Shown here: positions 7,932 through 34,219 of the stretch, in pieces
How the letters are laid out: each line of letters starts with the position of its first letter
Position numbering within the stretch: position 1 is the first letter of the stretch
Assembly (NCBI GenBank): GCA_030019435.1
Contig: JASEEV010000007.1
Location: 1-55,226, forward strand
Length of the DNA: 55,226 bases
Source: Methanocellales archaeon
GTDB lineage: Archaea; Halobacteriota; UBA148
Reading direction: 5' to 3'
The notes under the pieces: model-generated
Told to the model about the DNA's origin: nothing
Databases searched by the model: none
What the model saw: only the letters and a program-made list of their open reading frames with translations
Program-made: the position numbers and the translations under genes

Positions 7932-8068
7932 AGCCGTCGGAGGGATTTGAACCCTCGACCTGCTGATCTCTTGCCAAGGAACCTACGGTTCCCTTGACCC
8001 TCCCCAAGGGGTTTAGAAGGAAGTCCTTCGGTTACGAGTCAGCCGCTCTACCACTAAGCCACGACGGC
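7932..8068 (-). tRNA. tRNA-Thr(CGT) with intron (7968-8032) at canonical 37/38 position
   Basis: GCCGTCG/CGACGGC acceptor, GCTGA-CTCGTA^...^A-TCAGC anticodon arm, T-arm GAGGGTTCAAATCCCTC. Confidence 0.92.
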
Positions 8069-16703: not shown

Positions 16704-16816
16704 CGGACCCGGGGGGATTTGAACCCCCGACCACCGGCTGTCCACGTGCAACGGTCACGTTGTCACGTACCGTTGAATAGAAGGCCGGTGCTATATCCAG
16801 ACTAAGCCACGGGCCC
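16704..16816 (-). tRNA. tRNA-Arg(TCT) with 38-nt intron (16740-16777) at 37/38
   Basis: GGGCCCG/CGGGTCC acceptor, CCGGC-CTTCTA^...^A-GCCGG anticodon arm, T-arm CGGGGGTTCAAATCCCCCC. Confidence 0.93.
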
Positions 16817-33920: not shown

Positions 33921-34012
33921 CCCCAGTATAAAAATGCATATGGAGATACTTAAACTTTGTTACCAGAATGTGTACCAAAATTTTTTTAACATCAGAGAAC
34001 TATGATAGTTTT

Positions 34013-34213
34013 TGGCGGGATGAAGCCTACGACGAAACCAAAACCATCGCCTACGGGCGATGGGTGTCGTGTATGAACCTGGGTTAACAACCAGGGAAGG
34101 ACGCGAATAAATACCTTGGCAGAAAGGTATGACGGGAGACACGTAGGAAAAAAGACCCAAAGAATGAAAAGTCGACGCAAGTTGAAAAGTATTTCGAGGG
34201 TCAAGTCCCGCCA
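34013..34213 (+). ncRNA. candidate orphan structured RNA, ~201 nt
   Basis: Closing stem TGGCGGGA/TCCCGCCA plus seven internal helices, including CCATCGCC-UACG-GGCGATGG and TCGAC-GCAA-GTTGA; no credible ORF. Confidence 0.6.
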
Positions 34214-34219
34214 TTGTAT

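Follow-up and report, generated by a model that had tools for sequence, protein, structure and literature searches.

Archaeal SRP RNA (RF01857) is a single-copy, stand-alone RNA with a helix joining its 5' and 3' ends, and archaeal RNase P RNA (RF00373) is a multi-branched housekeeping RNA, comparable in size to the RNA described here. Comparative genomics has also yielded RNAs of unknown function that are supported by covariation and restricted to particular lineages (the kind in PMC2864571; GOLLD, ROOL and OLE in PMC12286853), and sRNA162 of Methanosarcina mazei is an intergenic, independently promoted archaeal RNA (PMC3510493). The locus analysed here resembles each of these in the features just named. 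It is found in a small order of deep-subsurface and serpentinite archaea, the Met12/'Ca. Serpentinarchaeum' group. Met12 (G005 in our set), with a genome of 1,067,436 bp, has been proposed as Ca. Serpentinarchaeum, a non-methanogen that lacks Mcr as sequenced and was placed within the Methanocellales by the authors (PMC11176372). No description of such an RNA was found in the literature, and the words 'non-coding' and 'noncoding' do not occur in the main text of the Met12 paper (PMC11176372).

The window, meaning the whole stretch of DNA that was analysed, is 55,226 nt of contig JASEEV010000007.1 from a Methanocellales archaeon. On present sequence data, it encodes a discrete, strongly structured RNA, delimited by a covariance model (R1); the mature RNA is likely to extend from about 34013 to 34213.

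34010-34216, + strand: structured RNA gene, matched by covariance model R1 at 232 bits

The minimum free energy (MFE) of the + strand RNA is -83 kcal/mol, against a mean of -51.7 for shuffled sequences (z -7.9, with 0 of 200 shuffles folding as well). The value for the minus strand is z -4.1, and the + strands of the homologues range from z -1.6 (G006) to -7.7. The + strand, which the sequence-only reading had taken as the RNA strand, was assigned because the consensus pairs of the nine full copies include 42 G-U cells and only 9 A-C cells. That reading had also proposed an orphan structured RNA of about 200 nt that was not RNase P RNA, SRP RNA or rRNA, and had named an Infernal comparison with Rfam as a check. 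The proposal holds, with transcription inferred only: covariation is strong (see below), and a search of the window stretch with Rfam 15 found no family matching the RNA at E<=10. Searches of the relatives gave only weak matches well under threshold; one of them, to the IRES_HepA model, is on the opposite strand of L005, where it overlaps the RNA locus, and scores 14.2 bits (gathering score 55).

The known archaeal RNAs were considered individually. RNase P RNA was rejected because there is no RF00373 match and no long-range pseudoknot of the RNase P P4 type, and SRP RNA because there is no RF01857 match; the genuine gene is elsewhere in each case. An rRNA fragment or 5S rRNA was rejected in the absence of an Rfam match and because alignments were inconsistent between members. 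RNase P RNA, SRP RNA, full-length 23S and 16S rRNA and 5S rRNA were found at separate loci where searched, barring some incomplete assemblies. As a separate observation, the RNase P RNA genes are 420 nt long in G000 (L257:3716-4135, - strand) and 401 nt in Met12 (L255:909-1309, + strand), compared with 294 nt in G001-G003. The extra sequence in the long forms enlarges the first hairpin as well as a second site; it folds into long hairpins, with no obvious intron. Two tRNA genes in the window are also long (7932-8068 and 16704-16816, both - strand), at 137 and 113 nt where the model has 71 positions. Both probably contain introns, and an ARAGORN run found neither.

BLASTN found one strong match in each of G001-G009 (76-86 % identity), covering all three families of the order (f1, f2 and f3). 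With R1, 10 of the 11 genomes of the order have a match, observed as one copy in each, nine of them at >200 bits; the only genome without a match is a 63 % complete assembly. Nothing credible was found outside the order in an R1 search of a 397-genome sample of the phylum or in a more sensitive run on 40 genomes. Weak R1 matches (15-21 bits) in G024 and G030, both within reading frames, and in G000:C44, overlapping one, were taken as chance. A scan with a DNA pattern derived from the RNA returned at least 119 stretches and, among the matches listed, R1 confirmed two, in the Methanocellales-labelled MAGs Yes46-10 and CSMAG_2511. The copy in G007, which is from the same genus as Met12, keeps about the first 80 nt followed by unrelated sequence (L223:6404-6628, on an 8-kb contig). 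This may represent lineage-specific decay, in which case the RNA is dispensable in one lineage, or an assembly fault.

A consensus structure of 57 pairs was built on the nine full-length copies, which represent the three families. Its elements are as follows.

34013-34021, + strand: P1, 5' strand, pairing with 34205-34213 and closing the whole molecule; two-sided changes in two pairs, 98.8 % of cells paired
34205-34213, + strand: P1, 3' strand, with a T-rich stretch directly after it
34026-34031, + strand: P2, 5' strand, pairing with 34142-34147; two-sided changes in 2 of 6 pairs
34142-34147, + strand: P2, 3' strand, pairing with 34026-34031
34038-34039, + strand: P3, 5' strand (CC), pairing with 34134-34135 (GG), a helix inside P2
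34134-34135, + strand: P3, 3' strand (GG), pairing with CC at 34038-34039
34044-34063, + strand: P4 hairpin, UACG tetraloop in 9 of 9 copies; two-sided changes in 5 of 8 pairs
34067-34106, + strand: P5 stem-loop, made up of P5a and P5b, with a GUURAYAA-like loop
34067-34072/34101-34106, + strand: P5a, two-sided changes in 3 of 6 pairs
34078-34082/34091-34095, + strand: P5b, two-sided changes in 2 of 5 pairs
34112-34129, + strand: P6 hairpin, two-sided changes in 3 of 7 pairs
34154-34158, + strand: P7, 5' strand, pairing with 34198-34202; 95.6 % of cells paired, nearly invariant
34198-34202, + strand: P7, 3' strand, pairing with 34154-34158
34162-34164/34193-34195, + strand: P7b, standard pairs in 9 of 9 copies
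34166-34168 (GAA) opposite 34188-34191 (AGUA), + strand: internal loop between P7b and P8, both sides invariant in 9 of 9 copies
34172-34185, + strand: P8 hairpin, loop GCAA in the window; P7b, the internal loop and P8 together span 34162-34195

P1, P2, P4, P7 and P8 lie exactly where the sequence-only reading had placed them, and the helices it had called P5 (P5b here) and P6 are present as drawn. Its P3, which paired ACGA with TCGT, is not kept in relatives, where the 5' strand reads A-N-G-A; the TCGT strand instead starts P5a, a covarying helix missing from that reading. The first pair of P3 as defined here is C-G in five sequences and G-C in four, the flip being seen in other families, and an adjoining A/G opposition is invariant (9 of 9 copies). 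Two special tetraloops had also been pointed out and only one is general: UACG is invariant in the nine full copies, and the GNRA loop of P8 (GCAA) is specific to the window. The A-rich single-stranded linkers are nearly unchanged among copies, which suggests, though only by inference from their constancy, that they serve in contacts with proteins or within the tertiary fold and not in antisense pairing. In its sequence pattern, the GAA/AGUA internal loop is like a sarcin-ricin (bulged-G) motif, with no 3D result to support the likeness. Single-sequence MFE folds of G001, G002, G006 and G008 depart locally from the consensus fold.

Among the cells of the 57 pairs in the nine full copies, 96.8 % hold standard pairs. 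Two-sided changes were found in 20 of the 57 pairs (55 cells), a count not reached in any of 500 shuffles, and when the structure was slid along the alignment the paired cells dropped to 33-42 %. As relatedness inflates pair comparisons of this kind, a tree-aware null was used, in which the same number of changes per column was placed randomly on the inferred tree (300 simulations). Here, a mean of 6.7 and a maximum of 13 pairs had two-sided changes, and 85.2 % of cells were paired (maximum 91.1 %); a second transversion setting gave 81.5 % paired cells and 5.6 pairs. Collecting homologues and testing covariation, which had been proposed as a further check, thus came out in favour of the structure, with 20 pairs against a null maximum of 13. 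P4 and P6 covary well. However, P7 is almost invariant and hence cannot be tested by covariation and, as the nine full sequences come from only three families, parts of P1 and P2 likewise remain untested in this way.

Upstream of P1, the copies have a conserved element, TACCAGAATNTKTACCAAAA, and an AT-rich TATA-like stretch.

33961-33980, + strand: conserved upstream element TACCAGAATGTG/TACCAAAA, from the alignment of upstream regions
33973-33990, + strand: BRE/TATA-like core promoter TACCAAAATTTTTTTAAC, conserved in the nine full copies; P1 begins about 27 nt further downstream

The upstream element consists of direct near-repeats of TACCANAAT spaced by 12 nt, with three in G001. Outside the RNA gene, no match to the 20-mer had fewer than two mismatches. 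In G003 the copy at the gene itself has three mismatches, one shifted match with two mismatches in G004 is the neighbouring repeat, and the remaining matches are about as frequent as in a backward control. The element is a probable operator private to the RNA promoter and the putative site of an unidentified regulator, for which there are no binding data. The BRE/TATA sequence is at the archaeal distance from a predicted start at P1, its role being inferred from archaeal promoter rules.

We conclude, with a probability of roughly 0.62, that this is a stand-alone structured ncRNA gene of about 204 nt inherited in one archaeal order, whose product is a trans-acting RNP scaffold; its transcription and function are inferred. 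Transcription of the + strand would be driven by the BRE/TATA promoter, with the 5' end at P1 or immediately upstream of it and termination in the T-rich sequence that comes after P1. In the consensus fold, P2 and P7 meet P1 at a three-way junction, which P1 closes, and P2/P3 encloses a multi-branch junction of P4, P5 and P6. Much like SRP or RNase P RNA, the RNA may then be the scaffold of a ribonucleoprotein, here an order-specific one acting in trans in a role that is unidentified. Protein or tertiary contacts would be made by its A-rich junctions, which are invariant, and by the UACG and GAA/AGUA loops. That the RNA is stable and abundant is likewise an inference, made without evidence of a transcript, a partner or a phenotype. 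The further proposal, that it is a new housekeeping-grade RNP RNA of one reduced-genome archaeal order and serves a core function whose RNA component is unknown in other lineages, is tentative and could well be wrong.

A trans-acting regulatory sRNA, antisense or Lsm-dependent, with loops that pair with mRNAs and under the control of the private upstream element, is possible though unlikely. Such an RNA would account for an own promoter with a conserved operator-like repeat, and there is precedent in archaea, e.g. sRNA162 (PMC3510493). However, antisense sRNAs do not usually have an extensive closed multi-branch fold that is kept order-wide and changes at the pace of SRP RNA, and no exposed conserved seed was identified. 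The closed fold, the invariant single-stranded linkers and the single copy together favour an RNP scaffold over an antisense sRNA, which is again an inference.

It seems improbable that the RNA is a decoy or mimic (6S-, 7SK- or Ro/Y-like) altering the activity of a protein to which it binds, be it RNA polymerase, a translation factor or some other. An RNA that is compact and closed, and that carries hairpins and a sarcin-ricin-like loop, could mimic an rRNA or nucleic-acid site, but no consistent similarity emerged when it was compared with the 16S, 23S, SRP and RNase P RNA of the same genomes: 2 of 21 comparisons exceeded shuffles, in unrelated places and in different members, and were taken as chance. 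Nothing specific indicates a partner.

It is quite improbable that the RNA is a guide or ribozyme, namely a box C/D or H/ACA guide, an omega-type RNA of a mobile nuclease or an RNase P/MRP relative, despite a size and multi-branch shape that superficially fit some such classes. Beyond the lack of an Rfam match, no copy contains a box C (RUGAUGA), by which a box C/D guide was rejected, and ACA positions are not common to all copies. No formal H/ACA scan was made; P5 has a small internal loop with A-rich sequence after it and an upper stem of only 5 bp. Antisense matches of 9 nt to rRNA common to the four genomes tested were not found. Long-range pairing of >=4 bp outside the nested helices, sought in at least eight of the nine sequences, is not conserved, hence there is no RNase-P-type pseudoknot, and RNase P RNA is encoded separately. 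The RNA is single-copy at fixed loci, where none of the adjacent genes was recognised as coding for a transposon nuclease, and no homologue was found in viral contigs or in phages and plasmids.

It is very doubtful that the RNA acts in cis, as the leader or terminator of a neighbour (fen1, DUF460-like, tfx or metG). The RNA adjoins these genes, and in f2, where it lies between an unassigned gene and a tfx-type regulator gene, the latter is downstream on the same strand. However, in f1, where the RNA lies between a DUF460-like gene (assigned on a weak Pfam match of 20.2 bits, below the cut-off) and fen1, and in f3, where it lies between an apparent relative of the f2 unassigned gene and metG, the downstream gene is convergent and the upstream gene divergent. 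A riboswitch or cis-regulatory leader was rejected on the same grounds, the convergent downstream gene in f1 and f3 and the differing neighbours. The RNA and its promoter element are kept beside fen1 in f1, tfx in f2 and metG in f3; the differing neighbours indicate that the RNA is an independent gene, the constancy of the promoter that it probably acts in trans, and the association with DUF460 and fen1 is incidental. The locus thus meets the criteria for a stand-alone structured ncRNA, with a covariation-supported fold, its own promoter and conservation apart from its neighbours. We note that a protein of about 180 aa without any Pfam match adjoins the RNA divergently in f2 and f3 (L221:4368-4910, - strand; L224:5316-5882, + strand).

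A chance fold or coding remnant without RNA function, in favour of which no evidence emerged, is refuted, as far as comparison of the copies can decide, by the covariation above the tree-aware null, together with the z of -7.9, the order-wide conservation, and the frame-breaking indels and stops that leave no reading frame open in all copies, every frame having stops in some of them.

Genomes of about 1 Mb retain few dispensable genes. That an order with genomes of this size retains a single-copy structured RNA with its own promoter, changing no faster than SRP RNA, is the main significance of the finding, and the RNA probably serves an important but unidentified role. If it is an RNP scaffold, the conserved structural RNAs of archaea, which are very few, gain another member. 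What is new is an RNA family without a relative in Rfam 15; orphan structured RNAs of unknown function are well known as a kind. Existing data can be used to test the rival explanations, since public deposits include Met12 metatranscriptomes from which rRNA was not removed (PMC11176372).

Relative to sRNA162 (PMC3510493), the RNA differs in having an elaborate closed fold across three families and no mRNA pairing shown. It has no sequence or model relation to RNAs of the GOLLD, ROOL and OLE kind, and is distinguished from them as an RNA of about 204 nt that is chromosomal, single-copy and archaeal, with a private archaeal promoter. RNase P RNA differs in being encoded by a separate gene, in matching a model and in having a pseudoknot, and changes more slowly between the same pairs of genomes. 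SRP RNA, too, is at a separate locus, where it scores 184-208 bits, and the orphan RNA has no match to its model or above-chance similarity to it. However, the two RNAs change at about the same rate across the order (identities of 78.1 % for the orphan RNA and 77.6 % for SRP RNA between G000 and G009, and of 77.4 % and 77.2 % between G001 and G009), and in f1 both start with TGGYGGG or similar.
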